Origin: an uncultured Bacillota bacterium
Lineage (GTDB): Bacteria > Bacillota_I > Bacilli_A > RF39 > UBA660
Length of the DNA stretch: 64,000 nt
Direction: 5' to 3'
NCBI GenBank assembly: GCA_900317975.1
Contig: ONIZ01000001.1
Coordinates: forward strand, 199,479-263,478
The notes beneath the pieces are model-generated. The model did no database searches and was not told where the DNA came from. It saw nothing but the letters and a program-made list of their open reading frames with translations. Shown one piece after another: positions 3,602 through 55,720 of this stretch (positions within the stretch are counted from its first letter, which is position 1; each line of letters begins with the position of its first letter). Made by a program: the position numbers and the translations under genes.

Positions 3602-3625
3602 TTCTTAACTATTATTGATATATAT

Positions 3626-26986: not shown

Positions 26987-27574
26987 ATGAGCAACAAAAA
27001 GATCATTGGTATCGATTTGGGTACCACTAATTCATGCGTATCAGTTTATGAAGCTGGTGAAGCGCAAGTAATTACAAATGCTGAAGGTAAACGTACTACT
27101 CCTTCAGTTGTAGGATTTACAAAAGATGGTGAACGTAAAGTTGGAGATCCAGCAAAACGTCAAGCTATTACAAATCCTAAGAACACAGTTTATTCTATTA
27201 AGCGTTATATGGGAATGAATTATGACAAACTTAAGAAAGAAGACAAAGATGTTCCATATAACCTTATTAACGACAATAATCTTCCTAAAGTTGATATAGA
27301 AGGGAAGAAATATACTCCTCAAGAAATTTCCTCAATGATTCTAGCCAAGATGAAGAAGACAGCAGAAGACTATCTTGGTAATGAAGTTACAGAAGCAGTT
27401 GTTACTGTCCCTGCATATTTTGATGACCGTCAACGTCAAGCTACTATTGAAGCTGGTAAGATTGCTGGACTTGATGTAAAGCGTATTGTCAATGAGCCAA
27501 CCGCCGCAGCACTTGCTTATGGTGTTGACAAATCAGACAAAGATATGAAGATTGTTGTATTTGATTTCGGTGGT
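26987..27574 (+). CDS. dnaK: DnaK (Hsp70) chaperone, exon 1
   Basis: Codes for residues 1-196 of a phage Hsp70. [16 protein letters not shown] (phosphate-1 loop) at the N terminus, [16 protein letters not shown], and [14 protein letters not shown] are textbook DnaK sequences. The exon ends inside the phosphate-2 motif at IVVFDFGG. Reading on into the intron adds only 11 residues ([11 protein letters not shown]) and a stop, so unspliced message gives a truncated, inactive 207-residue product. Joined to exon 2 at 29085 it restores [12 protein letters not shown] exactly. Confidence 0.96.
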
Positions 27575-27896
27575 AAACGTCATGAAAACTGCCTCCGCGC
27601 TGCAGCTTAATTTAAGTTGTATGTGTAAAATTAAAAACTTGTTAATTGCGGAGAACCCCACGTTAATTCGATAAGAGAGCTCTAATTACCGCACTTGATG
27701 GTGACATACAAGGTAGCAGATAGCTTAATTACTATTGGATGGTAAAAAGATTAGAGATTGGGCAACCGAAATAAGCGCAGCGAAGTTTCTTAGTAATAAG
27801 AAAAACGTTCAACGACTAGAAAAAGTAATCCTATAAAAAATATCTAAAGGACCAAATTTCCATGAATACAAGTTAATCTAAAGTGGAACTTTTGAT

Positions 27897-27907
27897 TTAT
27901 TTTTAAT
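27897..27907 (+). promoter_or_regulatory. Candidate late-type promoter box inside the intron
   Basis: Exact TTATTTTTAAT, 23 nt before the endonuclease ATG, the same spacing seen before virion operons. It would let the endonuclease be made late and separately from dnaK splicing, as known for intron endonucleases of T4. Confidence 0.55.
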
Positions 27908-27929
27908 TAAATAAAATATATTAAAATTT

Positions 27930-29051
27930 ATGGAAAGTTCTAATAAAGAAGAGATCTTTGACATTTTGATTAAACACATTTTAAAAATTTTTGATGAAAA
28001 CAATAATGAAATAAAGTTTTCAGAAATAAAAATTAAAGAAACAAAATTAAAATATGCTTCAAATTCTTCAATACATGTATATTTAGATAATAATATATGT
28101 TTATCTTCAAAAGAAACAAGAAAATATAGAGTATTATATAAATGTAGATGTGGAAGAGAAAATAAAATTTTGCTTTGTAAATATTTATTAAAAAGAAAAA
28201 TAGTATGTCAACATTGTTTACAGGATAGAACATTTGAAGATCATTTAGATGTACAACCATATTCAATTAAAAAAGGGTTAAGATCAAAAATTAATAATAA
28301 CTTAAACAAGCAAAACAATGAATTGATATTTGAAAATATGAATGATGAATTTAAAACAAATTATTATTCTAATCATTTAACTAATGAGGAATTTTTTAGA
28401 TATCTTCCTTATATGTATCAAATTAATAATGTTATTATAACACCAAAAAACATTAAATTAATTAGATATTTGGAACATTATCCAACAAATAATCAATTTA
28501 AATTTACTGCTAAAGTTTCATTTGATAATGGTATAACATATAAATCAATTCAAAATATAAAATTACAATGTTCTATATGTAAAAAAATATTTAATGTACA
28601 TATTAATAACTTAAAAAATAAAGATTTATCTAATATTAAATGTAAAATGTGCTCTTTAAGTAATCATAGATATAATATTAAATTATTTGATGAATCTGGA
28701 CTTACTTATCAATCTAATCCAGAAAAATATTTTATTGAGCAGTGTTATAAATATAATATTAAAATTAATAATGGATTAAAAATTCCTTATTACTTTAATA
28801 ATTCAAATCATATATATAATTCAGATTTTTATTTACCAGAATATAATTATGTTATAGAAATTAAATCTGATAATATTTGGTACAGAAAAGATATAGAATC
28901 AGGAAAAATCAAAGCAAAAGAACAAGGCGTAGTAGAATTTGGTAAACTTTATAATATAAAATATAAAATGTTGTTTGATCAGGATATAGATAACTTTATT
29001 AAAAACATTTTAGATGAAAGAGATAGTCTAAACAATCAAGAGATTGATTGA
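27930..29051 (+). CDS. Intron-encoded homing endonuclease, PD-(D/E)xK type with two zinc ribbons
   Basis: 373 residues, very Asn/Lys/Ile-rich. Two Cys4 zinc-ribbon-like sites: Cys72/Cys74 with Cys93/Cys96, and Cys214/Cys217 with Cys238/Cys241. The C terminus contains SDFYLPEYNYVIEIKSD, giving Asp299 and Glu310-Ile-Lys312, a PD-(D/E)xK nuclease core; it ends with KYKMLFDQDIDNFIKNIL. It lies wholly within the dnaK intron and should cut intronless dnaK alleles to spread the intron. There is no LAGLIDADG, GIY-YIG or HNH motif. Its base composition is more AT-rich than that of dnaK. Confidence 0.85.
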   Translation: MESSNKEEIFDILIKHILKIFDENNNEIKFSEIKIKETKLKYASNSSIHVYLDNNICLSSKETRKYRVLYKCRCGRENKILLCKYLLKRKIVCQHCLQDRTFEDHLDVQPYSIKKGLRSKINNNLNKQNNELIFENMNDEFKTNYYSNHLTNEEFFRYLPYMYQINNVIITPKNIKLIRYLEHYPTNNQFKFTAKVSFDNGITYKSIQNIKLQCSICKKIFNVHINNLKNKDLSNIKCKMCSLSNHRYNIKLFDESGLTYQSNPEKYFIEQCYKYNIKINNGLKIPYYFNNSNHIYNSDFYLPEYNYVIEIKSDNIWYRKDIESGKIKAKEQGVVEFGKLYNIKYKMLFDQDIDNFIKNILDERDSLNNQEID

Positions 29052-29084
29052 AATTAAGATAAAGAGCTTAATGATAATAAAATG

Positions 29085-30452
29085 GGTACTCATGATGTAT
29101 CTATTCTTGAATTCGGTTCAGGTGTATTTGAAGTATTAGCAACAAGTGGTGATACACATCTTGGTGGTGATGATATTGACAATGTTGTTATGAAGTATCT
29201 TACCGATGAATTCAAGAATGACAAGGGAATTGATCTTACAAAAGATCCTATGGCAATGCAACGTGTAAAGGAAGCAGCTGAAAAAGCAAAGATTGAATTA
29301 TCATCAACTACATCATCAGAAATCAATCTTCCTTATATTACTGCTAATGAAAATGGACCACAACATTTGGTAATGACATTAACAAGAGCGAAGTTTGAAC
29401 AGTTGATTGATTCTATTGTAAAGAAAACTATTGAGCCTTGCCGTCTTGCATTAGAGCAAGCTAAGCTTTCTACTAAAGACATTGATGAGATTCTGTTGGT
29501 TGGTGGATCTACACGTATTCCTGCTATTCAGGAAGCTGTAAAGAACTTCTTTGGCAAGGAAGCATCTAAGGGAATCAATCCTGATGAAGCTGTTGCTATT
29601 GGAGCATCTATTCAGGGAGCTATTCTCAATAAAGATGAAGGTGTTGGTGATATTGTACTTCTTGATGTAACTCCTATCTCTATGGGTATTGAAGCACATA
29701 CACAATTTGATCCTGATGGAAGAATGGCAAAGATCATTGAAGCACAAACAACAATTCCTTGTAAGAAGAGTCAGACATTTACAACAGCTGTAGACAACCA
29801 GTCAGCAGTTACTATTGTAGTACTTCAGGGAGAACGTACATATGCTAAAGATTGCAAGACTATTGGAACATTCAATCTTGAAGGCATTGCTCCAGCTAAA
29901 GCAGGTATTCCACAGATTGAAGTATCATTTGATATTGATGCTAATGGTGTATTGAATGTATCTGCTAAAGACAAGGCTACAGGTAAGGAACAGCAAATCA
30001 CAATTTCTAACAACAATCTTTCAGATGCAGAAATTGAACAAATGAAGGCTGATGCAGAAGCACATAAGGAAGAGGACAAGAAGAGAGAAGAACAAATGAA
30101 CAAGCTTAATATGGCTCAATTCTTGATTAACTCAATTGACCAGATGTTTGAAGATGAAAATATGAAAGACAAGATTACTGAGGAAGATAAGAACAATATC
30201 ACTCCTGCTAAAGACAATCTTGCTGAAGTATTGAAAGAATATCAAACAGCTGAAGACAAGGAAGATGCAATGCTTAAAGTTGAAGAAGCTCAAAAGGCTT
30301 TGGAAGAAGTATGGAATCCTTTAGTAAAGAAACTTTATATTGATCCTAATGCTGCCGCTAATAATGAAGGTGGTAATCCTTTTACAGGAGATAATCCATT
30401 TGCTGGACAAGGTATTGATCCTTCACAATTTGCAGGAGCAGCAAATAAATAA
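29085..30452 (+). CDS. dnaK: DnaK (Hsp70) chaperone, exon 2
   Basis: Codes for 455 residues, giving 651 with exon 1 (E. coli DnaK has 638). Continues [17 protein letters not shown], then [27 protein letters not shown], the linker [15 protein letters not shown] and the substrate-binding beta domain, ending in a flexible Asn/Gly/Pro-rich tail ([18 protein letters not shown]). The LLDVTP linker is close to the bacterial LLLDVTPLSLG with small changes. An ATG at 29082 belongs to the intron, not to the mature message. It is an ATP-driven chaperone, probably for folding virion proteins or replication proteins. Confidence 0.96.
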
Positions 30453-32091: not shown

Positions 32092-32979
32092 TTATTTATA
32101 CCATGCTGGTGGATTTCCTTCTAATGGAGATTCATCAAACATCCATCTCATATCTTGAACATTACTTACATCCCATTTAGATATGTCTCCATTAAATTTT
32201 GAACTATAGAACATACAACTCATATTTTCAACATTGATAACATTCCATTTCGATATATCTTGATTGAATTTAGAATCATAAAACATATATCCCATATCTT
32301 TAACTTTACTTACATTCCATTGAGATATATCATTATTGAATTCAGATTCTTCAAACATATGACCCATATTTTTAGCATTCCTAATATCCCACTGAGATAT
32401 ATCTATGTTAAATTTATATCCATAAAACATGTATTGCATATCTTCAGCTTTGCTTACATCCCAGTTAGATATATTTTGATTAAATTTAGAATATGAAAAC
32501 ATCCATGACATATCTTTAACACTACTTACATCCCAATCAGAAATATCTTGATTAAATTTAGATTCAGCAAACATACTAGACATATTATTAACATTACTTA
32601 CATCCCATTTAGATATGTCTTGATTAAATTTAGATTCAGCAAACATATATTGCATATTTTCAACATTATGTATATCCCATAAAGAGATATCTCCATTGAA
32701 TTTTGATCTACAAAATATATATGACATATCCTCAACATTACTTACATCCCATTCAGAAATATCCCCATTAAATTTAGATGAAAAAAATAATTTAGACATA
32801 TCAGTAATTTTTGATGTATCTATATCATTAATATCTGCATCAATACCTCTTTCTTTAATTAATTTTTTTATTAATTTTTGTAGTTCATCTTTTGTTTTTG
32901 GATGATAATTATATTGATGGGTCAAATTGTCTTTTGATAGACGAAATTTCTCTGTTATAAACTGGTTTAGTTTCTTCAT
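32092..32979 (-). CDS. BspA-like (DUF285) repeat protein, nine units (longest)
   Basis: 295 residues with nine repeats, the largest family member in the window. Leader MKKLNQFITEKFRLSKDN and linker THQYNYHPKT are shared with the gene at 55721. Units 2-5 (…SLWDIHNVENMQYMFAES…) nearly match units 2-5 of the gene at 55012, which lies about 23 kb away. Several units use NQDIS, NIDIS or NNDIS in place of NGDIS. It is the last gene of array 2, ending 8 nt from the terminator. Confidence 0.88.
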   Translation of the reverse strand: MKKLNQFITEKFRLSKDNLTHQYNYHPKTKDELQKLIKKLIKERGIDADINDIDTSKITDMSKLFFSSKFNGDISEWDVSNVEDMSYIFCRSKFNGDISLWDIHNVENMQYMFAESKFNQDISKWDVSNVNNMSSMFAESKFNQDISDWDVSSVKDMSWMFSYSKFNQNISNWDVSKAEDMQYMFYGYKFNIDISQWDIRNAKNMGHMFEESEFNNDISQWNVSKVKDMGYMFYDSKFNQDISKWNVINVENMSCMFYSSKFNGDISKWDVSNVQDMRWMFDESPLEGNPPAWYK

Positions 32980-33000
32980 ATATATTAGATATTATTTTAT

Positions 33001-33681
33001 TTATTCTTTATACCATGCTGGCATATTATATTTTAATGGACATCCAAAAAACATATCATCCATATCTTTAACATTACTTACATTCCATTTTGAAATATCT
33101 CCATTAAATTTAGAATAAGCAAACATCTGATACATTGTTTTAACATTACTAACGTCCCATTGAGAAATATCTCCATTAAATTTTGATCTTGCAAACATAG
33201 CTATCATATTTGTAACATTACTAACGTCCCATTGAGAAATATCTCCATTAAAAACCGAATCTTTAAACATAATATGCATATTTTTAACACTACTTACATC
33301 CCAATTAGATATATCTCCATTAAATTTAGATTCTCTAAACATACTGTCCATATCTGTAACATTGCTTACATCCCATTTTGATATATCTCCATTAAAATCA
33401 GAATTCAAAAACATATTTGTCATATCTTTAACATTACTTACATCCCACAAAGATATATCTCCATTGAAATATGAATCATAAAATATAGATGTCATATCAG
33501 TGATTTCAGAAGTATCTATATCATTTAGATCAGCCTTATTACCTCTTTCTTCAATTAATTTATCTACTAAGTCATTTAGTTCATATAAAGTCTTTGGGTA
33601 ATAATGATATGTATATACGTTCTTTAAGTTATCTTTTGATAGTCTAAACTTTTCTGTTATGAACTGATTTAGTTGTTTCAT
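33001..33681 (-). CDS. BspA-like (DUF285) repeat protein, six units
   Basis: 226 residues. Leader starts MKQLNQFITEKFRLSKDN (Gln3), shared with the genes at 53508 and 54471. The linker is longer (LKNVYTYHYYPKTLYEL). Six regular NGDIS repeats; the cap is altered to CPLKYNMPAWYKE. Units 4 and 5 carry the same QWDVSNV block at DNA level, suggesting recent local duplication. Confidence 0.87.
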   Translation of the reverse strand: MKQLNQFITEKFRLSKDNLKNVYTYHYYPKTLYELNDLVDKLIEERGNKADLNDIDTSEITDMTSIFYDSYFNGDISLWDVSNVKDMTNMFLNSDFNGDISKWDVSNVTDMDSMFRESKFNGDISNWDVSSVKNMHIMFKDSVFNGDISQWDVSNVTNMIAMFARSKFNGDISQWDVSNVKTMYQMFAYSKFNGDISKWNVSNVKDMDDMFFGCPLKYNMPAWYKE

Positions 33682-33710
33682 ATATAATAATTTATATTAT
33701 TTAGTTTATG

Positions 33711-34166
33711 TTATTCTTTATACCATGCTGGTGGGTTCTGTTCTAATGGGCATCCGTAAAATATATCAAGTTTATTTTCAACATTATGCGTATCCCATTC
33801 AGAGATATCTCCAGAAAATTTTGAACAAGTAAACATATAATCCATATATTTGACTTTACTTACGTCCCATCCAGATATATCACCATTAAATTCTGAATCT
33901 GCAAACATATCACTCATATTTATTACATTACTTACATCCCATAAAGATATATCTCCATTAAAATTAGAACAATAAAAAGTTGCAGACATATCTTTTATGT
34001 TAGATGTATCTATATCATTAAGATTTGCGTCATACCCTCTTTCCTCAATTAACTTACTAATAAGAGTATTAAAATTTTTATCATTTGGATGATAGTTATA
34101 ATGAGGTTCAAGATTGTCTTTTGATATACGAAATTTCTCCGTTATGAACTGATTTAATTTCTTCAT
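33711..34166 (-). CDS. BspA-like (DUF285) repeat protein, three units (shortest class)
   Basis: 151 residues with three repeats. Leader variant RISKDN; the linker lacks the DELxxLV helix start, reading HPNDKNFNTLISKL. Unit 3 ends in VENKLDIFYGC, where the usual Met-x-x-Met-Phe is changed to Lys-Leu-Asp-Ile-Phe. Cap CPLEQNPPAWYKE. Confidence 0.85.
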   Translation of the reverse strand: MKKLNQFITEKFRISKDNLEPHYNYHPNDKNFNTLISKLIEERGYDANLNDIDTSNIKDMSATFYCSNFNGDISLWDVSNVINMSDMFADSEFNGDISGWDVSKVKYMDYMFTCSKFSGDISEWDTHNVENKLDIFYGCPLEQNPPAWYKE

Positions 34167-34179
34167 ATATATTATTATT

Positions 34180-34800
34180 TTATTTATAAAATTTATTATA
34201 CAATTCCGTATACCATGCTGGCGGATTTTTTTCTAATGGGGAATAATCAACCATCCATGCTATATTTTTGACATTACTTACATCCCATTTAGATATATCT
34301 CCATTGAATTTGGACTGTTCAAACATATGACACATATCTGCGACATTACTTACATCCCATTTAGATATATCTCCATTAAACTTAGAATTATAAAACATTC
34401 CATTCATAGTTGTAACATTACTTACATTCCAACCAGAGATATCTTCATTAAATTTAGAACGCCAAAACATTCCTGCCATGCTTTTAACATTTGATACATC
34501 CCATTTTGATATATCTCCATTAAAATTTGATTCTTTAAACATCCATGTCATACGTTCAACATTGCTTACATTCCATTCAGAAATATCCCCATTGAATTTA
34601 GATTTATAAAATAATTCAGACATATCAGTAATTGCACAAACATCTATATCATTAAGATCTGCATCATTCCCTCGTTCTTTAATTAGTTTCTTGACTAATT
34701 CTTTTAGTTCATCTTTTGTTTTTGGATAATAATTATATTGATTAATACTATCTTTTGATAAACGAAATTTCTCTATAATGAACTGGTTTAGTTTCTTCAT
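34180..34800 (-). CDS. BspA-like (DUF285) repeat protein, five units
   Basis: 206 residues. Leader MKKLNQFIIEKFRLSKDS with a short linker (INQYNYYPKT). Units 1-3 (VERMTWMFKES, KSMAGMFWRS, VTTMNGMF) parallel those of the adjacent gene at 34810, so the two are tandem duplicates that have since diverged. The cap is followed by an extra ELYNKFYK, also found at the end of the gene at 55012. Confidence 0.86.
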   Translation of the reverse strand: MKKLNQFIIEKFRLSKDSINQYNYYPKTKDELKELVKKLIKERGNDADLNDIDVCAITDMSELFYKSKFNGDISEWNVSNVERMTWMFKESNFNGDISKWDVSNVKSMAGMFWRSKFNEDISGWNVSNVTTMNGMFYNSKFNGDISKWDVSNVADMCHMFEQSKFNGDISKWDVSNVKNIAWMVDYSPLEKNPPAWYTELYNKFYK

Positions 34801-34809
34801 ATATTAATT

Positions 34810-35415
34810 TTATCTATTTTTATACCATGCTGGTGGATTCTTTTCTAATGGGCAAAAACTAAACATCAATTCCATATTTTTGACATTACTTACATCCCAT
34901 TGGGATATATCTCCATTAAATTTCGATTCTTTAAACATCCACGACATATCTTCAACATTACTTACATCCCATTGAGATATATCACCTCTAAATTTAGAAT
35001 TAGAAAACATTCTATACATAGTTGTGACATTGCTTACTTCCCAACCAGAGATATCTCCATTAAATTTAGAACCCCAAAACATTCCTGCCATTTTTTCCAC
35101 ATTACTAACATCCCATAAAGATATATCTCCATTAAATTTTGATTCTTTAAACATCCATGTCATTTGTTCAACATTACTTACATCCCATTGAGAAATATCC
35201 CCATTAAATTCAGATTTAAAAAACATATATGACATATCAGTAATTTCAGATGTGTCAATATCATTGAGATCAGCATCATTACCTCTTTCTTTAATTAATT
35301 TATTTACTAATTCTTTTAGTTCTTTTTGTATTTTAGGATGATAATTATAACGAGGTTCAAGATTGTCTTTTGATAATCTGAATTTCTCTACTATAAACTG
35401 ATTTAATTTCTTCAT
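34810..35415 (-). CDS. BspA-like (DUF285) repeat protein, five units
   Basis: 201 residues. Leader MKKLNQFIVEKFRLSKDN. Its repeat order MTWMFKES / AGMFWGS / TTMYRMF matches the neighbour at 34180. Unit 3 has GWEVSNV, a rare Glu for Asp. It has its own late-type box 24 nt upstream, so part of array 2 can be transcribed independently. Confidence 0.86.
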   Translation of the reverse strand: MKKLNQFIVEKFRLSKDNLEPRYNYHPKIQKELKELVNKLIKERGNDADLNDIDTSEITDMSYMFFKSEFNGDISQWDVSNVEQMTWMFKESKFNGDISLWDVSNVEKMAGMFWGSKFNGDISGWEVSNVTTMYRMFSNSKFRGDISQWDVSNVEDMSWMFKESKFNGDISQWDVSNVKNMELMFSFCPLEKNPPAWYKNR

Positions 35416-35438
35416 ATACTATTTCATTTAAATTTACA

Positions 35439-35449
35439 ATTAAAAATAA
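35439..35449 (-). promoter_or_regulatory. Candidate late-type promoter box inside array 2
   Basis: Exact TTATTTTTAAT on the minus strand, 24 nt before the start at 35415. It overlaps the stop codon of the upstream gene at 35440. Confidence 0.5.
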
Positions 35450-36297
35450 ATTACCTTTTCTTTCCTAAACCATTTAGGAGGATTGACTTCTAATGGAGTT
35501 TTACGAAACATATCTGTTATAAAACATTTTTTACTTACTTTCCAGTTATTAAGATCCTGATTAAAATTAGAACCATAAAACATTCTATTCATACTTTTTG
35601 CTTTTCTTACATCCCATCCAGATATGTCTTGATTAAATGCACTTTTTTCAAACATATATCCAAAATCTGTAACCTCTGATACATTCCATTTACTAATATC
35701 ATAATTAAATGCAGTACCTCTAAACATGTCTTTCATATCTCTAACATTAGATACATTCCATTTAGATAGATCTTGGTTAAAATTTTTATCATAATTAAAC
35801 ATAGATTCCATTGTTTCAACCTTACTAACATTCCAATCAGATATATCCTGATTAAAATTAGAACCAGAAAACATCCAACACATATCTTCAACATTTGATA
35901 CATCCCAATCAGAAATATCTTTGTTAAATGCGCAATGTTGGAACATTGCTGACATATTTTTGACTTTACTTACGTCCCATCCAGATATATCTCCATTAAA
36001 ATCTGAATAACTAAACATATTTGTCATGTCTTCAACATTAGAAACGTCCCATTTAGAAATATCTCCATTAAAATTAAAAGACTGCCCACTATATTGTTCA
36101 TAACTAAATATACCACACATATTTGTAATTTCAGATGTGTCAATATCATTAAGATCAGCATCTTCACCCCTTTCACTAATTAAATCATGAACTAATTGTT
36201 GTAGTTCATTTATTGTCTTAGGGTGATAATTATAAGATCTGAGATTGTCTTTTGATATACGGAATTTTTCATTTACAAATTGTACAAATGATTTCAT
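35440..36297 (-). CDS. BspA-like (DUF285) repeat protein, eight divergent units
   Basis: 285 residues. Leader MKSFVQFVNEKFRISKDN keeps Phe7, a branched residue at 8 and Glu10 but changes most other positions. Two units contain insertions (SYEQYSGQSFNFNGDIS and NYDKNFNQDLS). Most units use NQDIS/NYDIS, and the cap ends PPKWFRKEKVIYF. It is an older, diverged member whose leader shows which positions are constrained. Confidence 0.85.
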   Translation of the reverse strand: MKSFVQFVNEKFRISKDNLRSYNYHPKTINELQQLVHDLISERGEDADLNDIDTSEITNMCGIFSYEQYSGQSFNFNGDISKWDVSNVEDMTNMFSYSDFNGDISGWDVSKVKNMSAMFQHCAFNKDISDWDVSNVEDMCWMFSGSNFNQDISDWNVSKVETMESMFNYDKNFNQDLSKWNVSNVRDMKDMFRGTAFNYDISKWNVSEVTDFGYMFEKSAFNQDISGWDVRKAKSMNRMFYGSNFNQDLNNWKVSKKCFITDMFRKTPLEVNPPKWFRKEKVIYF

Positions 36298-36323
36298 AAT
36301 TTATATATATTGAGTTTATATAT

Positions 36324-36878
36324 TTACTTTGTAGATGTATATATATTTTTGTACCATTTTGGCGGATTATCTTCCAATGCTGAACCTTGAAATGCACGAA
36401 AGTCAGATATTATACTGGATGTATCCCAATGATTAAGATCACATTTGAAATTCTCACAGTTTATAAACATATATGTAATATTTGTTACTTTTGATATGTT
36501 CCAGTTTGTTAAATCAGAATCAAATTTTTCACAATATCCAAATAAGTTTTCCATATTTTCAACATTACTTACATCCCATTCACTTACATCAGAATTAAAG
36601 TTCTTACATCCCCAAAATACTCCAAACATATCTACAACATTTGAAGTATCCCATTCTGATATATCTATATTATGAGGATCTAAGTTAAAAAATGCTCCTG
36701 ACAAGGTGGTCATTCCAGATACATCAATATCATTAAGATTGGCGTTTTTGTCTTTTGCTAATCTTTTTTTAAGTATATCTTTTAGTTCCTTTATTGTTCG
36801 CGGATAATACTTATATTGTGTAATATTGTCCTTTGATAGTCTAAATTTCTCTGTTATGAACTGATTTAATTTCTTCAT
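36324..36878 (-). CDS. BspA-like (DUF285) repeat protein, four divergent units
   Basis: 184 residues. Canonical leader MKKLNQFITEKFRLSKDN, but the body differs: NANLNDIDVSGMTTLSGAFF, then units reading NIDISEWDTSNV, FNSDVSEWD, FDSDLTNWN and FKCDLNHWD, with Cys residues in loops (CKNF, CEKF, CENF). It resembles the gene at 57099 more than its neighbours. Cap LEDNPPKWYKN. Confidence 0.85.
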   Translation of the reverse strand: MKKLNQFITEKFRLSKDNITQYKYYPRTIKELKDILKKRLAKDKNANLNDIDVSGMTTLSGAFFNLDPHNIDISEWDTSNVVDMFGVFWGCKNFNSDVSEWDVSNVENMENLFGYCEKFDSDLTNWNISKVTNITYMFINCENFKCDLNHWDTSSIISDFRAFQGSALEDNPPKWYKNIYTSTK

Positions 36879-36907
36879 ATATAATAATTTATATTATTTA
36901 GTTTATG

Positions 36908-37654
36908 TTATTTTTTATACCATGCTGGAGGGTTCTTTTCTAATGGAGTATTTTCAAACATATCTGTTGTATCACATATTGTATTTATTTTCCATGTAGA
37001 TATATCTTGATTAAAAGGAGAGTCTGCAAACATTGCTACCATATTTTTTACAAAGGTAACATTCCACCCAGATATGTCCTGATTAAACTTAGATTTATAA
37101 AACATATGATCCATATATATAACATTATGTATATTCCATTTAGATATGTCTCCATTAAATTGAGATTTTCTAAACATTCCTCCCATATTTGTTACTTCAC
37201 TTACATCCCATTGAGAAATATTTTGATTAAATGATGATTCAGAAAACATCCATGTCATATCACCAACGTTGCTTACATTCCACTTAGAGATATCCCCATT
37301 AAATTTTGAACCACAGAACATACAACGCATATTTTCAACCTTACTTACATCCCAATTAGATATGTCTCCATTAAACTCTGATTCATAAAACATGTGTTCC
37401 ATAGTTTTGACATTACTTACATCCCATTGAGAAATATCTCCATTAAAAATAATAGGCCAAAACATCTTAGACATATCGGTAATTTCTGATGTATCTATAT
37501 CATTGAGATCAGCGTCTTTACCTCTTTCTTCAATGAGTTTCCTTACTAATTCTTTTAATTCATCTCTTGACTTTGGGTGATAGTTATAATGAGATTCAAG
37601 ATTATCTTTTGATATACGAAATTTTTCTGTAATAAACTGTCTTAATTTCTTCAT
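36908..37654 (-). CDS. BspA-like (DUF285) repeat protein, seven units
   Basis: 248 residues. Leader MKKLRQFITEKFRISKDN. Seven repeats; the last two are diverged (WNVTFVKNMVAMFADSPFNQ and TWKINTICDTTDMFENT). Length fits the 24-residue ladder exactly (200, 224, 248). Cap PLEKNPPAWYKK. Confidence 0.86.
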   Translation of the reverse strand: MKKLRQFITEKFRISKDNLESHYNYHPKSRDELKELVRKLIEERGKDADLNDIDTSEITDMSKMFWPIIFNGDISQWDVSNVKTMEHMFYESEFNGDISNWDVSKVENMRCMFCGSKFNGDISKWNVSNVGDMTWMFSESSFNQNISQWDVSEVTNMGGMFRKSQFNGDISKWNIHNVIYMDHMFYKSKFNQDISGWNVTFVKNMVAMFADSPFNQDISTWKINTICDTTDMFENTPLEKNPPAWYKK

Positions 37655-37667
37655 ATATATTATTACT

Positions 37668-38276
37668 TTATTTATTCTTTTTATACCATGCTGGCGGATT
37701 CTTGTCTATTGGACATTTATAAAACATATCATCCATATATTTAACATTATTAACATTCCATACAGATATATCTCCATTAAATTTAGAATTTAGAAACATC
37801 CATTCCATATCAACAACATTACTTACATCCCATTTAGATATATCACCAGTGAATTTGGAACCAGCAAACATATTTGACATATTTTTAACACTACTTACAC
37901 CCCATTGAGAAATATCTCCGTTGAATTTAGAATTATAAAACATACATGTCATATCTTCAACATTACTAACATCCCAATTAGATATATCTCCATTAAATTG
38001 AGAATCTCTAAACATAGATCTCATGCTTTTAACATTACTAACGTCCCATAAAGAAATGTCTCCATTGAATTCTGATTTATTAAACATAGCTGACATATCA
38101 GTAATTGTGGAAGTATCTATATCATTGAGATCACCATTATTACCTCTTTCTTTAATTAATTTATCTACTAATTCTTCTAGTTCATCTTTTGTCTTAGGAT
38201 GATAATTATAATGAGGTTCAAGATTGTCTTTTGATAATCTGAATTTCTCTGTTATAAACTGATTTAATTTTTTCAT
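37668..38276 (-). CDS. BspA-like (DUF285) repeat protein, five units
   Basis: 202 residues from the leader Met at 38276; an in-frame ATG ten codons upstream (38306) would add MLKYRKNINY and overlap the next gene, so it is rejected. Five canonical repeats; unit 3 has GVSSV for DVSNV. Cap CPIDKNPPAWYKK. Confidence 0.86.
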   Translation of the reverse strand: MKKLNQFITEKFRLSKDNLEPHYNYHPKTKDELEELVDKLIKERGNNGDLNDIDTSTITDMSAMFNKSEFNGDISLWDVSNVKSMRSMFRDSQFNGDISNWDVSNVEDMTCMFYNSKFNGDISQWGVSSVKNMSNMFAGSKFTGDISKWDVSNVVDMEWMFLNSKFNGDISVWNVNNVKYMDDMFYKCPIDKNPPAWYKKNK

Positions 38277-38292
38277 ATAATTTATATTTTTT

Positions 38293-38712
38293 CTATATTT
38301 TAACAATTTCTAATTTATTTTTATCCCATTTATAACCCTTTTCATACAGTTTCTCATAAAACATCTCATATTCTTCATCTGTAGCCAATTTATACCATTC
38401 TGGATGATTAACATCTCCTACTCCCATATCTTCAGAAACAACTAATTTATTATATGGAATTACTAATACTGCATGAAATATTATTGTAGTTTCTGAACTA
38501 TTGGGATAGATTTTGTCTTTTCCTTTATTCAATGATTTATATATAAAGAACTGTTTGCCTCCTTTATTCCATATTTGAATATCAGGATGAATAAATTCTA
38601 CTATGTCACCATTTTGTGCATTTTTAATAGACCAATTTTCCCTATCAAAGAAATCTAAATTTGCTTTAGATAATCTAAATTTTTCAATAATGAATTGAGT
38701 TAGTCGTTTCAT
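38293..38712 (-). CDS. Leader-bearing protein without BspA-like repeats (array 2 head gene)
   Basis: 139 residues from ATG 38712 (upstream in-frame codons to 38796 overlap the divergent promoter region and gene). Leader MKRLTQFIIEKFRLSKANLD is that of the repeat family. The body is different: IVEFIHPDIQIWNKGGKQFF, ETTIIFHAVLVIPYNKLVVS and a C-terminal YKLATDEEYEMFYEKLYEKG. No family recognised. The same leader on an unrelated domain shows that the leader works as a separate module. First gene of array 2. Confidence 0.7.
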   Translation of the reverse strand: MKRLTQFIIEKFRLSKANLDFFDRENWSIKNAQNGDIVEFIHPDIQIWNKGGKQFFIYKSLNKGKDKIYPNSSETTIIFHAVLVIPYNKLVVSEDMGVGDVNHPEWYKLATDEEYEMFYEKLYEKGYKWDKNKLEIVKI

Positions 38713-38737
38713 TATAAACAAATAAATATTATTATTA

Positions 38738-38748
38738 AATAAAAATAA
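38738..38748 (-). promoter_or_regulatory. Candidate late-type promoter box TTATTTTTATT
   Basis: Variant of the late box (10 of 11 positions), 26 nt before the start at 38712, heading array 2. Confidence 0.4.
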
Positions 38749-38768
38749 ATATATAATATTATATAACG

Positions 38769-39908
38769 ATGGCATATAATAAATATGAACAAGCAAAAAT
38801 TGATAAGTTCAATGAATTAGATGATAACGGAAAATTTCAAGATGTTACAGGATTAAGAAAACATGTTCCTGCAGATTTTGAAGGTGATAAAGCAAATTGG
38901 AATGTTCCAAAGGGTGCTTTTGTTTCTGGCGGTTATAGAAAAGCAATGTTTGATGCTGTTGGTGGTGGTGGTAGTTCAGAAGAAACACCAACTCCAGAAC
39001 CAACACCAAATCCAGATGATCAAGGTGGAAATACCTCAGGAGATGATGATGACTCTGGCTCGCAAGTTGTAGAGACATATTCTGCTGCAGAAGCTATTGA
39101 ATATAATGCAGCATTACCAGGAGCAAGAAAAGAAGGAGATAAAATAGATTCAAATGAAACAGTTCCTTATGAATATATTCATGATGCAGAATCTTGGGGA
39201 TTATCTGCTGGTAACAGTGTATTAAAGAAATATTATGAACAATATCCAGATGAAGATCACTGGAATATATCAGAAAACCGTGCAGGAAACTTCAATGATA
39301 AAGTATATGAAGTAGAAATTGGCAATGAAGTTGCAGATTTTGCTGCTCATTGGGAAAGTGATAATGTACAAAAAATAACTAAAGTATCTGATAACACAGA
39401 AGTTTATTATTTAGATATGTTCTATTCTTTAGATGAAGAAGAACATGCATTATTTACAGATGCAGCATTATCTGAATCAGCTGAAAAGGTTGCAAGATTT
39501 AGAGCAGTTAAATGGAATGCAGAAACTTGTCCAATATGTTGGGAAGGTGCAGTAAATGCTCCAGGAGCAAAATTACCTTGGGTAGCTATTAATTTTGATA
39601 CAGATGTAGATGCATTGGTAAGATTTGATTATGAAGGCAAAGATCCAGTTTATCCTTGGGGTGAAACATTATTTGGAACTGGAGAAGGTAAAAAGTCTTG
39701 GGGATTAGCATCTCCTGCTAAAGAATTTAATGATGATACATTAGCATTATCTGAAAATGGTGGTAATGGAGCATTTGATGGAGGTAATTTTAAAGTTACA
39801 TTAGTTCATATAGTAACTGCTGAAGAAGCTATTGAATATAATGCTAATTTGGATGGAGCAGTTAAAGAAGGAGATCCTAAGCCATCAACTGCAGAAGTTC
39901 AAGGTTAA
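38769..39908 (+). CDS. Acidic modular protein with duplicated AEAIEYNA motif, possibly virion-surface
   Basis: 379 residues. N-terminal 60 residues (AYNKYEQAKIDKFNELDDNG…WNVPKGAFVSGGYRKAMF), a Gly/Thr/Pro/Asp-rich linker (about 66-100), then a motif AAEAIEYNAALPGARKEGD near residue 106 that recurs as AEEAIEYNANLDGAVKEGD near 351, flanking a ~220-residue acidic domain. Contains one CPIC pair. The linker and repeated modules resemble decoration or fibre proteins, but I recognise no family. It is divergent from array 2. Confidence 0.6.
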   Translation: MAYNKYEQAKIDKFNELDDNGKFQDVTGLRKHVPADFEGDKANWNVPKGAFVSGGYRKAMFDAVGGGGSSEETPTPEPTPNPDDQGGNTSGDDDDSGSQVVETYSAAEAIEYNAALPGARKEGDKIDSNETVPYEYIHDAESWGLSAGNSVLKKYYEQYPDEDHWNISENRAGNFNDKVYEVEIGNEVADFAAHWESDNVQKITKVSDNTEVYYLDMFYSLDEEEHALFTDAALSESAEKVARFRAVKWNAETCPICWEGAVNAPGAKLPWVAINFDTDVDALVRFDYEGKDPVYPWGETLFGTGEGKKSWGLASPAKEFNDDTLALSENGGNGAFDGGNFKVTLVHIVTAEEAIEYNANLDGAVKEGDPKPSTAEVQG

Positions 39909-39928: not shown

Positions 39929-40600
39929 ATGAAAAAATTTCAAGAATTCAATTCTGAAAACACGTTAAACTGTGATTATAAGACTTGTATTATAGGGAAG
40001 TTGAAGAACGCACTTAAAGAAGAATTCAATGCATGGTATGGTTATATCATTGTTAAAGAATGGTTGACTGGACTAAGCAGAGTTGATATTGAAAAGATGT
40101 ATGATGAAACCGCTAAGGATGAATTAGAAGATCATGCATTTTGGTTGATGAAACGTATCAATGAGCTTGGTGGAACAATTGAAGACATATCTGCTTCTCC
40201 AGCTTCTTGGTTGACAGCTAATCATACTTATATTTCTCCTGTTTGGTCATGGAAAACAAATAATACATGTTGTCAAACTGGATCATGCTGCGGAGATTGT
40301 GAAGATCCATGTGGAGATATTTGTGATGATCTACCTACAATTACACTTGGTGAACCTTATGAATGTTGTGGAGATGGATGTCAATGTGGATGTCAATGCA
40401 AGCCAGATATAATAGAAGTAAAGCAATCCTTATTAACTAATATAAAAAATGAAGAAGGAGCAATTGAGACTTATAAAGATTTAATTAGAACTGCTCAATC
40501 TGATTCTGATTTTGTAACTGAACGTAAATGTAAAGAAATTCTTGCCGATGAAGAGGAACATTTACAAATGCTAAAAGATTTTTTAGCCGATATTAGTTAA
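39929..40600 (+). CDS. Ferritin-like four-helix protein with a cysteine-rich insert
   Basis: 223 residues. Helix A has LKNALKEEFNAWYGYI (Glu31/Glu32), helix B DELEDHAFWLMKRINELGG (Glu65, His69), helix C KNEEGAIETYKDLI, and helix D EILADEEEHLQMLKDFL with E208-x-x-H211. This is the pattern of bacterioferritin/Dps-like di-iron proteins. Between helices B and C, residues 114-157 hold 13 cysteines (CC...CC..C...C...C and CC...C.C.C.C), like a metallothionein loop. N terminus MKKFQEFNSEN keeps Phe7 and Glu10 of the capsid-targeting register. Roles could be iron storage, peroxide protection or metal delivery; packaging is inferred. Confidence 0.72.
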   Translation: MKKFQEFNSENTLNCDYKTCIIGKLKNALKEEFNAWYGYIIVKEWLTGLSRVDIEKMYDETAKDELEDHAFWLMKRINELGGTIEDISASPASWLTANHTYISPVWSWKTNNTCCQTGSCCGDCEDPCGDICDDLPTITLGEPYECCGDGCQCGCQCKPDIIEVKQSLLTNIKNEEGAIETYKDLIRTAQSDSDFVTERKCKEILADEEEHLQMLKDFLADIS

Positions 40601-40722: not shown

Positions 40723-41073
40723 ATGGAAAATCTTTTGAAAACCCAGTTCATTCAACTTACATTGATTCTTAGTGAGTTTGAGCGTGATTTTAGAGAAAAG
40801 TTGGAGAATTCTCCAGAAATTAATATGCAGGCAATGTATATGACTCTTGGAGATATTGTTTTGTCTAGTCGTAAAATCATGGGAGACTATTGTTTAGAAG
40901 AGTATGATAATCTCAAGGAAGTTTTTGATGATGAATTAGATCTTTTATATAGAATTAATAAAATTAATAATTATCTAAGAAAATATGATAGAGACAATAA
41001 GTTCTATCCTTATGTAAATTCTATGTTTGACATCATTAAAGATACCATGAATACAATGAGTAAGAAAGTCTAA
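40723..41073 (+). CDS. 116-residue helical hypothetical protein
   Basis: MENLLKTQFIQLTLILSEFE onward, mostly amphipathic helix, acidic. No recognised domain. Own early-type promoter; 5 nt before the next gene. Confidence 0.65.
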   Translation: MENLLKTQFIQLTLILSEFERDFREKLENSPEINMQAMYMTLGDIVLSSRKIMGDYCLEEYDNLKEVFDDELDLLYRINKINNYLRKYDRDNKFYPYVNSMFDIIKDTMNTMSKKV

Positions 41074-50860: not shown

Positions 50861-51463
50861 TTATTCTTTATACCATGCTGGTGGATTTTTTTCTAATGGA
50901 GATCTATAAAACATTTCTCGCATATTATCAACATTACTTACATCCCAATGAGATAAATCATAATTAAAATTTTCACATATATAAAACATACATTCCATAT
51001 TTTTAACCTTACTCACATCCCATTTAGATATATCTCTATTAAATTTAGATTGACAAAACATATAATCCATACCTCTAACATGACTTACATTCCATTGAGA
51101 TATATCTCCATTGAATTGAGAATCCATAAACATAGCTCTCATATTTGTAACATTACTAACATCCCATTCTGATATGTCTCCATTAAATTTAGAATATTCA
51201 AACATAGCAAACATAGTTTCAACATTACTTACATCCCATCCAGATATGTCTCCATTAAATTTAGAAAAATAAAATACTTCTGACATATCAGTAATTTCAG
51301 ATGTATCTATATCATTTAGATTAGCCTTATTACCTCTTTCTTTAATTAATTCCTTTACTAATTTTATTAGTTCATCTTTTGTCTTAGGATAATAATGATA
51401 TGACTTAAGATTGTCTTTTGATATTCTGAATTTCTCTGTTATAAACTGGTTTAATTTTTTCAT
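50861..51463 (-). CDS. BspA-like (DUF285) repeat protein, five units
   Basis: 200 residues, last gene of array 3. Leader variant RISKDN. Units 3-4 (QWNVSHVRGMDYMFCQSKFN) are almost the same as units 5-6 of the gene at 52285, two genes upstream. The final unit has an inserted CEN (ICENFNYDLSHWD). Only 5 nt from the upstream gene. Confidence 0.86.
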   Translation of the reverse strand: MKKLNQFITEKFRISKDNLKSYHYYPKTKDELIKLVKELIKERGNKANLNDIDTSEITDMSEVFYFSKFNGDISGWDVSNVETMFAMFEYSKFNGDISEWDVSNVTNMRAMFMDSQFNGDISQWNVSHVRGMDYMFCQSKFNRDISKWDVSKVKNMECMFYICENFNYDLSHWDVSNVDNMREMFYRSPLEKNPPAWYKE

Positions 51464-51468
51464 ATATA

Positions 51469-52263
51469 TTAGATTAACTTATTTTTATACCATGCTGGTG
51501 GATTATTTTCTAATGGTGAATAGTCAAACATATATGTCACATCTCCAACATTTGAAATATTCCATTTAGAAATATCTTGGTCAAATTTTGCTCCCCAAAA
51601 CATCCTATTCATATTTAAAACTTTACTTACATCCCATAAAGATATGTCTCCATTGAAATCTGAATCATAAAACATATGACTCATATTTTTTACTTTACTT
51701 ACGTCCCATCCAGATATATCACCATCAAATACCGATTCATAAAACATACCAAACATATCTTCAACATTACTTACATCCCATTGAGAAATATCTTGGTTAA
51801 ATTTTGTTCCCCAAAACATCCTATTCATATATTTAACATTACTAACATCCCATTTAGATATATCTCCATTAAATTTAGATTGCCTAAACATTTCTGCTGT
51901 ATTTACAACTTTACTTACATCCCATTCAGATATATCTCCGTTGAATTTTGACTCTTGAAACATTCCTTCCATATTCTTAACATTACTAACGTCCCATTCT
52001 GATATATCCACATTGAATTCAGAATAAGCAAACATATATGACATATCCGTAACATTAGTAGTATCTATATCATTAAGATCAGCATCATTACCTCTTTCTA
52101 TAATTAGTTTCCTTACTATTTGGTGTAGTTCTTTATTTGTTTTTGGATGATAATTGTAATGAGGCTCAAGATTGTCTTTTGATAGACGAAATTTTTCTGT
52201 TATATATTTGGTTATACCAAAGGCTCTTTCAGCTTCTGAAATATATTGATTTAATTTCTTCAT
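51469..52263 (-). CDS. BspA-like (DUF285) repeat protein, seven units, with a double leader
   Basis: 264 residues. The leader is split by a 13-residue insertion: MKKLNQYISEAERAFGITK, then YITEKFRLSKDNLEPHYNY. The first half ends in Y-I-S-E-A, an ideal match to the T4 capsid-targeting cleavage context; the second half repeats the normal F/Y-I-x-E-K. Seven units follow; NRMFWG-x-KF-x-QDIS occurs twice three units apart, indicating an internal triplet duplication. Cap PLENNPPAWYKNKLI. Confidence 0.87.
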   Translation of the reverse strand: MKKLNQYISEAERAFGITKYITEKFRLSKDNLEPHYNYHPKTNKELHQIVRKLIIERGNDADLNDIDTTNVTDMSYMFAYSEFNVDISEWDVSNVKNMEGMFQESKFNGDISEWDVSKVVNTAEMFRQSKFNGDISKWDVSNVKYMNRMFWGTKFNQDISQWDVSNVEDMFGMFYESVFDGDISGWDVSKVKNMSHMFYDSDFNGDISLWDVSKVLNMNRMFWGAKFDQDISKWNISNVGDVTYMFDYSPLENNPPAWYKNKLI

Positions 52264-52284
52264 ATATATTAGATATTATTTCAT

Positions 52285-52956
52285 TTAACTTTTATACCAA
52301 GCTGGTGGATTCTTTTTTAATGGGCAAGCCCCAAACATTCCTGTCATGCTTCTAACATTTGATACATCCCATTTTGATATATCTCCATTAAATTTAGATT
52401 GACAAAACATATAATCCATATCTCTAACATGACTTACATTCCATTGAGATATATCACCATTGAATTTTGATCTGGCAAACATATCAGACATATTCGTAAC
52501 ACTACTGACATCCCATTTAGAAATATCTCCATTAAATTCAGAATTCAAAAACATACTATCCATTAATTTTACTTTGCTTACATTCCATTTAGAAATGTCA
52601 TTATTGAATTTAGAATTCAAAAACATACATTCCATATCTTTAACCTTACTTACATCCCACAAAGATATATCACCATTGAATGTAGATTCATAAAACATAT
52701 AATCCATTTTTTCAACATTACTTACATCCCATAAAGATATATCTCCATTGAATGTAAAACTTCTAAATAGCATGCTCATATCAGTAATCTCAGAAACATC
52801 TATATCATTTAGGTTTGCTTCATTGCCTCTTTCTTCAATTAATTTGATTATTAATTTTTTTAATTCAATTTTTGTTTGAGGCTGATACTGAAACTGATTA
52901 AGATTGTCTTTTGATAGTCTGAATTTCTCTGTTATGAATTGATTTAGTTTTTTCAT
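52285..52956 (-). CDS. BspA-like (DUF285) repeat protein, six units
   Basis: 223 residues. Linker unusual (LNQFQYQPQTKIELKKLIIK), and NEANLNDIDVSEITDM replaces the DTSEITDM form. Units 1 and 2 begin identically (TFNGDISLWDVS). Shares the QWNVSHVRDMDYMFCQS block with 50861. Cap CPLKKNPPAWYKS. Confidence 0.86.
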   Translation of the reverse strand: MKKLNQFITEKFRLSKDNLNQFQYQPQTKIELKKLIIKLIEERGNEANLNDIDVSEITDMSMLFRSFTFNGDISLWDVSNVEKMDYMFYESTFNGDISLWDVSKVKDMECMFLNSKFNNDISKWNVSKVKLMDSMFLNSEFNGDISKWDVSSVTNMSDMFARSKFNGDISQWNVSHVRDMDYMFCQSKFNGDISKWDVSNVRSMTGMFGACPLKKNPPAWYKS

Positions 52957-52969
52957 ATATATTATTACT

Positions 52970-53497
52970 TTATTTATACCATGCCGGTGGATTGTTTTCT
53001 AATGGGCAATCCTGAAACATATCTATCCCACACTTAACTTTACTTACATCCCATTTAGAGATATCTCCATTAAATTTAGACTTTTGAAACATCCATCCCA
53101 TATTTTCAACATTACTTACATCCCATTTAGAAATATCTTGGTTAAATTTTGTTCCCCAAAACATATATTTCATATTTTTAACATTATGTACATCCCATAA
53201 AGAGATATCTCCATTAAATTTGGATTTACAAAATATATATTGCATATCTTCAACCTTGCTTACATCCCATGTCGAAATATCCCCATTAAAATTAGAAGTA
53301 AAAAATATTGAAGACATATCGGTAATTTCAGATGTATCTATATCATTGAGATCAGCATCATTACCTCGTTCTTTAATTAGTTCCTTTACTAATTTCCTTA
53401 GTTCATCTCTTGTCTTTGGATGATAGTTATAGTGAGGCTCAAGATTATCATTGGATAGTCTGAATTTCTCTGTTATGAATTGATTTAATTTCTTCAT
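52970..53497 (-). CDS. BspA-like (DUF285) repeat protein, four units
   Basis: 175 residues. Leader MKKLNQFITEKFRLSNDN (Asn for Lys16). Unit 2-3 block SLWDVHNVKNMKYMFWGTKF combines pieces found in 55012 (DVHNV) and 51469 (FWGTKF), consistent with shuffling. Cap CPLENNPPAWYK. Confidence 0.86.
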   Translation of the reverse strand: MKKLNQFITEKFRLSNDNLEPHYNYHPKTRDELRKLVKELIKERGNDADLNDIDTSEITDMSSIFFTSNFNGDISTWDVSKVEDMQYIFCKSKFNGDISLWDVHNVKNMKYMFWGTKFNQDISKWDVSNVENMGWMFQKSKFNGDISKWDVSKVKCGIDMFQDCPLENNPPAWYK

Positions 53498-53507
53498 GTA
53501 TAAGGTT

Positions 53508-53969
53508 TTATTTATTTTTATACCATGCCGGAGGATTATCTTCTAATGGGCAATGTTTAAATATATCGCGCATATCTATACCATTACTTACATCCCATTG
53601 AGTTATATCTTCATTGAATTCAGACCAGCTAAACATATCTCTCATAGTTTTAACTTTACTTACATCCCATGTGGATATATCTCCATTAAATTTAGAATGT
53701 TTAAACATTTCTTGCATATTATCAACATTACTTACATTCCATTCAGAGATATCTCCATTAAAATTAGACGCCCAAAATAAACCACTCATATCAGTAATTT
53801 CAGAAGTATCTATATCGTTGAGATTAGCCTTATTCCCGCGTTCTTTAATTAACTTATTAATCAATCTATATAATTCATAAACGTTTTTAGGATGATAGTT
53901 ATAATGAGGCTCAATATTGTCTTTTGATAACCTAAACTTTTCTGTTATAAACTGATTTAGTTGTTTCAT
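53508..53969 (-). CDS. BspA-like (DUF285) repeat protein, three units
   Basis: 153 residues. Gln3 leader (MKQLNQFITEKFRLSKDN). Linker with NVYELYRLINKL. Last unit changed to FNEDITQWDVSNGIDMRDIF. Cap CPLEDNPPAWYKNK. One of the two shortest-class members with three repeats. Confidence 0.85.
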   Translation of the reverse strand: MKQLNQFITEKFRLSKDNIEPHYNYHPKNVYELYRLINKLIKERGNKANLNDIDTSEITDMSGLFWASNFNGDISEWNVSNVDNMQEMFKHSKFNGDISTWDVSKVKTMRDMFSWSEFNEDITQWDVSNGIDMRDIFKHCPLEDNPPAWYKNK

Positions 53970-53995
53970 ATATATTAGATATTAACTTATTTTAT

Positions 53996-54457
53996 TTATT
54001 CTTTATACCATGCTGGAGGATTTTTTAACAATGGAGAATTATCAAATATCCATGACATATTTTTGACATTACTTACATTCCATTGAGATATGTCTCTGTT
54101 GAATTCAGATTCATCAAACATACATTGCATAATTTTAACATTACTAACATCCCATTTAGAAATATCTCCATTGAACTCTGATTTATTAAACATAGCTTCC
54201 ATAGTTGTAACATTACTTACATCCCATTGAGATATATCCCCATTAAATTTAGATTCAGCAAACATAGCTCTCATATTTGTAACCTTACTTACGTTCCAAT
54301 TAGATATATCTCCATTAAATTTAGAACCACAAAATATGAGTGACATATCAGTAATTTCCGATGTGTCTATATCATTAAGATCAGCATCATCTCCTCTTTC
54401 TTTAATGTCTTTTGATAGACGGAATTTCTCTGCGATGAATTGGTTTAATTTCTTCAT
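53996..54457 (-). CDS. BspA-like (DUF285) repeat protein, four units, linker deleted
   Basis: 153 residues. Leader MKKLNQFIAEKFRLSKD joins directly to IKERGDDADLNDIDTSEITD, so the ~22-residue linker (NLEPHYNYHPKTKDELxxLV) is missing in frame. Four normal repeats remain, which makes the total equal to a three-unit member by coincidence. Cap SPLLKNPPAWYKE. It shows that the linker is dispensable or that the gene is decaying. Confidence 0.85.
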   Translation of the reverse strand: MKKLNQFIAEKFRLSKDIKERGDDADLNDIDTSEITDMSLIFCGSKFNGDISNWNVSKVTNMRAMFAESKFNGDISQWDVSNVTTMEAMFNKSEFNGDISKWDVSNVKIMQCMFDESEFNRDISQWNVSNVKNMSWIFDNSPLLKNPPAWYKE

Positions 54458-54470
54458 ATATTAGATTAAC

Positions 54471-54998
54471 TTATTTTTTATACCATTTAGGAGTGTTATT
54501 TGTTAATGGGCGGGCATGAAACATATATCTCATATCTTTAACATTAGATACATTCCAATTAGATATATCTTTATTGAATTCTGATCCTCTAAACATCCAC
54601 GACATATCTTCAACATTAGATACATCCCATTTAGATATATCACCATTAAATTGAGAATCTCTAAACATTGAATACATAGTTTTAACTTTACTTACATCCC
54701 ATTCAGATATGTCTTGATTAAATGATGAATTAGCAAACATATATTTCATGTCTTCAACATTACTTGTATTCCAATCAGATATATCTCCATTGAAATCAGA
54801 ATCCATAAATAATTCTGACATATTAGTAATTTCTAAAGTATCTATATCATTGAGATCGGCATCATTCCCACGTTCTTCAATAAGTTCATTTACTAATTCC
54901 CTTAGTTCATCTCTTGTCTTAGGATGATAATTGTATTGATTAAAATTGTCTTTTGATAGACGGAATTTCTCCGCAATGAACTGGTTTAACTGTTTCAT
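54471..54998 (-). CDS. BspA-like (DUF285) repeat protein, four units
   Basis: 175 residues. Gln3 leader with Ala9 (MKQLNQFIAEKFRLSKDN). Linker FNQYNYHPKT. Unit 1 has DWNTSNV. Cap diverged: RPLTNNTPKWYKK, with Thr for Pro. 13 nt spacers separate it from both neighbours. Confidence 0.86.
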   Translation of the reverse strand: MKQLNQFIAEKFRLSKDNFNQYNYHPKTRDELRELVNELIEERGNDADLNDIDTLEITNMSELFMDSDFNGDISDWNTSNVEDMKYMFANSSFNQDISEWDVSKVKTMYSMFRDSQFNGDISKWDVSNVEDMSWMFRGSEFNKDISNWNVSNVKDMRYMFHARPLTNNTPKWYKK

Positions 54999-55011
54999 TT
55001 ATTATTACTAT

Positions 55012-55707: not shown

Positions 55708-55720
55708 ATATTACTTTAAC

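Follow-up and report, generated by a model that had tools for sequence, protein, structure and literature searches.

A predicted DPSL-type mini-ferritin of a jumbo phage with a 13-cysteine insert and a capsid-targeting-like N terminus

The closest solved relative of the protein described here is the dodecameric DPS-like protein of Bacteroides fragilis (2vzb), a thioferritin. Thioferritins are defined by a two-cysteine motif, and in Pf-DPSL these cysteines line the channel of the ferroxidase centre (PMC12532284). In phage T4, residues 4 and 7 of the capsid-targeting sequence (CTS) direct targeting, and residues 8 (Ile or Leu) and 10 (Glu) serve cleavage (PMC9026906). Encapsulins, according to three reports (PMC8346489, PMC11202242, PMC9321382), have an HK97-fold shell that is related to phage capsids and is loaded with ferritin-like cargo by means of a short peptide. 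For phage-borne Dps, and for catalase, a role as helper of the infected host is proposed in two others (PMC8008677; PMC6669764). In a non-exhaustive search of the open-access literature, neither a ferritin that serves as targeted cargo of a phage head nor one with a Cys-rich loop between helices B and C was found to be described.

The gene lies in a window of 64,000 nucleotides, the whole stretch of DNA that was analysed, on a contig of 410,106 bases (G000:C82; also IMG/VR 2799112330_000002). The contig is that of a tailed jumbo phage. It encodes a Gp23-type major capsid protein (E = 8.9e-28), closest to those of huge and Lak phages and of phages of Bacteroidota and others, as well as an S77 prohead protease of the T4 gp21 kind (E = 2.3e-12). 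Binning placed it with a 1.9-Mb genome whose contamination is 7%. Among 98 related genomes and 395 of the same class, the ferritin gene was found on the window's own contig only; because no other genome of the class that was searched has it, the bin is not informative on the host. Elsewhere in the window, dnaK (26987-30452, + strand) is interrupted precisely at position 196 of the Hsp70 profile, and the roughly 1.5 kb in between contain a 373-aa ORF not assigned to a family. The interruption is possibly a mobile intron, and it gave no intron match in Rfam. Genes for Hsp20 and DnaJ come after the split dnaK.

Fold and diiron ligands

The product, called the window ferritin below, starts at an ATG with the residues MKKFQEFNSE (Table 1). 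It is matched by the Pfam families PF00210 (Ferritin, E = 8e-15) and PF02915 (Rubrerythrin, E = 1.8e-6) in two blocks, residues 25-88 and 164-222, which flank the insert. A monomer model calculated with AlphaFold2 from the window ferritin and 11 relatives has four helices, mostly at pLDDT > 90, with low confidence for residues 1-11, 111-146 and 148-154. The top solved match of this model in Foldseek is 2vzb (E = 1.2e-6), which is also found by a sequence-profile search (E = 5e-25), and comparison of the two in VIA gave a Z of 22.3 and an rmsd of 1.9 Å over 155 aligned residues. The first-pass annotation had recognised ferritin-like helices with an E208-x-x-H211 motif and named structure prediction as the check; the two-block Pfam match, the confident four-helix model and its similarity to 2vzb bear this out.

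Table 1. Features in the window; positions count from its first nucleotide.
Feature	Position	Strand	Basis
NDPK, capsid-targeting-like N terminus, Cys cluster	450-857	-	Pfam NDK 4e-15
DUF285 paralogue stretches	880-2677, 32092-38796, 50861-57710	-	
IMPDH/GMP-reductase-like gene	7562-8707	+	
NUDIX gene	23376-23939	+	
ADP-ribosylglycohydrolase-like gene	24485-25285	+	
Run of capsid-targeting-bearing genes, mostly DUF285, divergent from and adjoining the window ferritin	32092-38796	-	
Window ferritin, DPSL-type ferritin-like, Cys-rich insert, 223 aa	39929-40600	+	ORF; Pfam; AlphaFold2 model vs 2vzb
N terminus MKKFQEFNSE, capsid-targeting-like, position 8 atypical (Asn)	39929-39958	+	PSSM; AlphaFold2 disorder; T4 rules
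Helix A, residues 15-43, candidate ligands E31/E32	39971-40057	+	AlphaFold2; invariant in relatives
Helix B, residues 51-79, candidate ligands E65, H69	40079-40165	+	AlphaFold2; alignment with B. fragilis-type protein
13-Cys insert, residues 114-157, B-C connection	40268-40399	+	Cys positions; absent from aligned relatives
Helix C, residues 164-191, candidate ligand E175; thioferritin Cys replaced by G177	40418-40501	+	AlphaFold2; alignment
Helix D, residues 195-222, candidate ligands E208, H211	40511-40594	+	AlphaFold2; alignment

The candidate ligands E31/E32, E65, H69, E175, E208 and H211 are invariant across the aligned phage relatives and coincide with the bacterioferritin-like diiron positions of helices A to D, a correspondence of aligned residues rather than of metal geometry. 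The four-helix bundle of the ferritin-like superfamily is found in the AlphaFold2 model (Z 22.3), and the bacterioferritin-like ferroxidase site within the bundle, by which DPSL proteins are recognised, aligns with that of the B. fragilis-type DPSL. In helix B the ligands are spaced as E65-x-x-x-H69, one residue more than the usual E-x-x-H, and this spacing is common to the phage relatives in the same clade. The model thus identifies the window ferritin as a phage mini-ferritin of the DPSL type with a four-helix fold.

Three related classes were considered and rejected. A canonical Dps has its ferroxidase site between subunits; here the ligands are of the intrabundle, bacterioferritin type, a Lys-rich tail is missing, and the protein is acidic, with a net charge of about -20 and a pI of 4.4. 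Both Cys of the thioferritin motif are absent, H99 and G177 standing in their place, so that the protein is related to the DPSL proteins but is not filed as a thioferritin. A rubrerythrin or rubredoxin arrangement, with two CxxC motifs at the C terminus, does not apply because the protein stops after helix D and its Cys cluster sits in the B-C loop.

Viral relatives and the cysteine-rich insert

Scans of viral contigs gave about 20 viral relatives. The closest, L029, L030 and L031 (51-52% identity), form one clade with the window ferritin (support 100/100) and have an enlarged B-C loop that is free of Cys; in L032, L043 and L044 this loop is short. L049 is encoded on a 400-kb contig, and the genome bin to which this belongs has an S77 protease hit on its contig C1. 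It carries no insert; its C terminus is instead formed by GSCGCGCCDCGDTDARDCELKCPSDSC followed by a short tail, with 8 Cys. Because L049 lies outside the well-supported clade (100/100), Cys-rich modules were probably acquired on two occasions and at separate sites. A search for a second copy of the L049 tail by exact peptides, which diverged copies would escape, found none. The thioferritin Cys pair is kept in L042, which is of the Bacteroides type, and in L035 and L037, two phage proteins that are more distantly related. In five records (L045, L046, L047, L131, L132) the ferritin is fused to an N-terminal NDPK domain, and these fusions start with a targeting-like sequence; an NDPK gene is a neighbour of the ferritin in L033 and L049. 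The nucleoside-diphosphate kinase (NDPK) in the window shares with those of L033, L045, L046 and L049 a conserved Cys cluster, C-x7-C-x-CC-x-C-x3-C, that precedes a catalytic-type HSSDS motif.

A tblastn search of 50,697 phage records returned only MT838091 (L003), a 5.7-kb human-gut fragment with a Bacteroides-type DPSL, which was again the sole match in these records with L043 and L037 as queries. Plasmids and PHROGs gave no match to the window ferritin. Apart from L049 and L050, two loci that look phage-derived, the genome scan returned only cellular bacterioferritin-like proteins without Cys clusters. In L050 the ferritin domain lies inside a 621-aa protein (1846-3711) with low-complexity regions, possibly a virion protein, which is open only if TAG encodes an amino acid; its contig is TAG-recoded and binned as Clostridium sp.

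The insert contains Cys at positions 114, 115, 120, 121, 124, 128, 132, 146, 147, 151, 153, 155 and 157; outside it the protein has Cys15, Cys20 and Cys201. With 13 Cys per 45-aa window against 8 in the next densest, it is the densest Cys cluster in the 519 ORFs of the 410-kb contig. At the Cys frequency of the contig (1.4%), the binomial probability of at least 13 Cys in 44 residues is 2e-14 per window, or about 2e-9 over all windows. The segment is rich in Cys, Gly and Asp and has no His, Met or Trp. Its Cys are spaced as CC, CxC and CxxC and occur in repeated CCGD/CQCG units, and for most of its length pLDDT is below 50, which predicts disorder.

Searched alone, the insert matched nothing in Pfam or NCBIfam and nothing significantly in the PDB, and it is absent from every relative aligned. 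A search by the exact peptides CCGDCEDP and CQCGCQCK found no second copy, and diverged copies would escape it, so that the insert is known from one sequence only. The Cys positions noted in the first-pass annotation, 13 between residues 114 and 157 and between helices B and C, agree with the translation and the model. Its statement that no family with such a loop was known also held in Pfam, NCBIfam, the PDB, the relatives and the literature search, and the homologue search that it advised turned up neither a relative with the insert nor a known separate domain matching the Cys segment. The description 'metallothionein-like' fits the Cys content only, as none of the metallothionein family models in Pfam and NCBIfam matches.

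Because relatives at 44-52% identity have no Cys loop, the loop is a lineage-specific in-frame insertion. An assembly artefact in which two genes were fused could be suspected from the fact that only one contig carries the insert, the genome bin and the IMG/VR record being probably the same assembly. However, the insert is in frame, the reading frame is intact, and helices C and D continue at about 50% identity to the relatives, which makes an artefact extremely improbable. The combination of a Cys loop with a mini-ferritin of CTS type occurs, by these alignments, in no other relative.

The 13-Cys loop is probably metal-binding, as judged from its composition and spacing. It could instead be a disulfide-rich or structural-Zn loop that plays no part in storage, or a nearly neutral expansion of low complexity in a permissive loop. 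The enlarged Cys-free B-C loop already present in L029-L031 would agree with this, as would the disorder, the internal CCGD repeats and the restriction to a single lineage. Yet the presence of 13 Cys without His, Met or Trp, together with the separate 8-Cys tail of L049, points to selection for thiols, and conditions in the cytoplasm of an anaerobe are unfavourable to disulfides. We regard a purely structural or neutral loop as unlikely, though not strongly so. The CxxC and CxC spacings near a ferroxidase fold also bring to mind an Fe-S cluster that supplies electrons from within the protein to release iron, comparable to bacterioferritin-associated ferredoxin (Bfd). However, models of Bfd, rubredoxin and ferredoxin all failed to match, and the order in the insert, CxxC followed by CxC, is opposite to that in Bfd, where CxC comes before CxxC. 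An Fe-S cluster is therefore a very improbable explanation.

Capsid-targeting-type N termini

The strict CTS pattern MKx[LIFV]xx[FYI][ILV]xE is present at the N terminus of 79 of the 519 ORFs of the contig and in none of 2072 internal-Met windows; 48 of the 79 are paralogues with EKFR[LI]S, mostly of the DUF285 family. A looser pattern is matched by 101 of 480 ORFs here, compared with 1 of 648 from the cellular loci fetched. A PSSM derived from 31 other CTS genes scores the N terminus of the window ferritin at 6.8, a value reached by 2 of the 2072 internal-Met windows. The fixed residues are encoded by varied codons (AAA/AAG for Lys, GAA/GAG for Glu, ATT/ATA for Ile), and selection therefore acts on the peptide. 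A shared upstream DNA element as the cause of the common N termini was rejected in view of this codon variation and the unremarkable upstream bases. Cys is not generally enriched in the CTS-bearing proteins (1.1% vs 1.8%). The roughly 48 DUF285 (BspA-like) paralogues on the contig, nearly all of which start with the capsid-targeting-like MKKLNQFITEKFRLSKDN, could be an arsenal of packaged proteins.

Compared with the T4 rules, the window ferritin has the targeting residues (F4, F7), whereas of the processing residues E10 is kept and position 8 is Asn; in nearly all other targeting sequences here position 8 is Ile, Leu or Val. Because F4, F7 and E10 are kept but residue 8 is Asn, targeting is expected and cleavage doubtful. 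A motif [ILVM]xE near the start is found in 13 of the 16 listed relatives and is missing from the window ferritin. The capsid-type N terminus with Phe7 and Glu10 claimed in the first-pass annotation thus belongs to a genuine system, as indicated by the strict counts, the S77 protease, the Gp23 capsid protein and most of the relatives. Within that system the window ferritin is an outlier, with its Asn8 and a gene outside any co-directional CTS operon: the same-strand neighbours at 38769-39908 and 40723-41073 have no CTS-type N terminus.

These deviations would be consistent with a different role, in which the protein is an auxiliary DPSL of the infected cell and not of the virion, helping an anaerobic host to survive oxygen or iron stress with the Cys loop as a cytoplasmic sink for metal or peroxide. 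The published proposals for other phage Dps (PMC8008677; PMC6669764) are of this kind. However, a CTS-type N-terminal extension is kept in most of the clade, the ferritins of the relatives mostly carry CTS-like N termini, many of them sit within runs of CTS genes, and the NDPK-ferritin fusions also start in a CTS-like manner. Among the neighbours of the relatives' ferritins, a CTS occurs in 41 of 62 same-strand genes and 3 of 34 opposite-strand genes (p = 3e-8, which is a guide only since genes of one operon or phage are not independent). A role confined to the infected cell is a possibility that deserves serious attention, but on balance we doubt it. In other uncultured phages, three Dps-like folds in BFVD are named 'Prohead protease' (A0A6J7XDU5, A0A6J7WPK9, A0A6J7WIS1), hinting at head-linked Dps there.

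Proposed function and comparison with known systems

In view of the above we favour, at a probability of roughly 0.45, a head-targeted ferroxidase of the DPSL type equipped with a thiolate metal-binding loop, of which metal binding and packaging are the putative elements. The protein would form a DPSL-type dodecamer that oxidises Fe(II), for which peroxide or O2 is the most likely oxidant. Its CTS-like N terminus would recruit it to the core of the prohead, and the head would then carry it. In the lineage of the window ferritin, a Cys/Gly/Asp-rich segment was inserted in frame into the B-C connection, and this segment would most probably adopt a fold only when it binds soft metals (Zn, Cu(I), possibly Fe) in a thiolate cluster. 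It could then provide an added metal sink or shuttle beside the iron-oxidising site. The thioferritin Cys that are replaced here belong to the B-C region and to the stretch close to where helix C begins, so that the loop would be expected near the exterior mouth of the ferroxidase-centre channel, outside the shell.

A complete 12-mer is about 9 nm across. The T4-type portal is about 30 Å wide (PMC9026906). The complete 12-mer is too large for such a portal, and delivery would therefore need disassembly: a packaged 12-mer would either stay in the head or leave as separate subunits. Protection of DNA inside the head, as suggested in the first-pass annotation, is unlikely to occur by binding in view of the net charge and pI, and DNA binding via a basic tail was rejected for the same acidity, but removal of Fe(II) and peroxide could still protect. 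A bolder extension, which we think improbable, is a DNA-filled head loaded with metallothionein-ferritin chimeras, an analogue of an encapsulin of viral origin in which iron oxidation and a soft-metal thiolate shell protect the DNA or deliver metal handling to the next host.

If the favoured mechanism is right, a single small, expressible protein would unite, as a natural fusion, the two main cellular modes of holding metal, namely a cage that oxidises iron and a cluster of thiolates. More broadly, the approximately 20 viral relatives, the NDPK fusions and the targeting-type N termini suggest redox and nucleotide enzymes as cargo of jumbo-phage heads.

Of the known systems, the B. fragilis DPS-like protein shares the four-helix fold and the diiron-ligand positions and is the top match in both sequence and structure, whereas the window ferritin lacks the thioferritin Cys (H99, G177) and adds a helix-B residue, the 13-Cys insert and the CTS-like N terminus. 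Metallothioneins resemble the insert in being Cys-rich without His or Trp and in their CC, CxC and CxxC spacings, but here the Cys segment is embedded in a ferritin loop and is matched by no family model. The Dps proteins of Gratiaviridae and Lactobacillus phages are likewise phage-borne members of the ferritin superfamily, proposed as an aid in the infected cell; a targeting sequence or Cys-rich insert is not described for them in the available text of the reports. The T4 internal proteins IPI-IPIII start with MK and have a hydrophobic residue 4, F7 and E10 like the window ferritin, and the S77 protease and Gp23 capsid protein of the T4 system are likewise encoded in this phage genome; the differences are that the cargo here is a diiron ferritin instead of a small basic protein and that residue 8 is Asn. 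In encapsulins, ferritin-like cargo (EncB/EncC, EncFtn) is also carried in a shell. In the present case the peptide is at the N terminus and a phage head filled with DNA would take the place of the shell, and if packaging indeed takes place, the phage would provide a parallel to the encapsulins, whose capsid-derived shells hold ferritin-like cargo.
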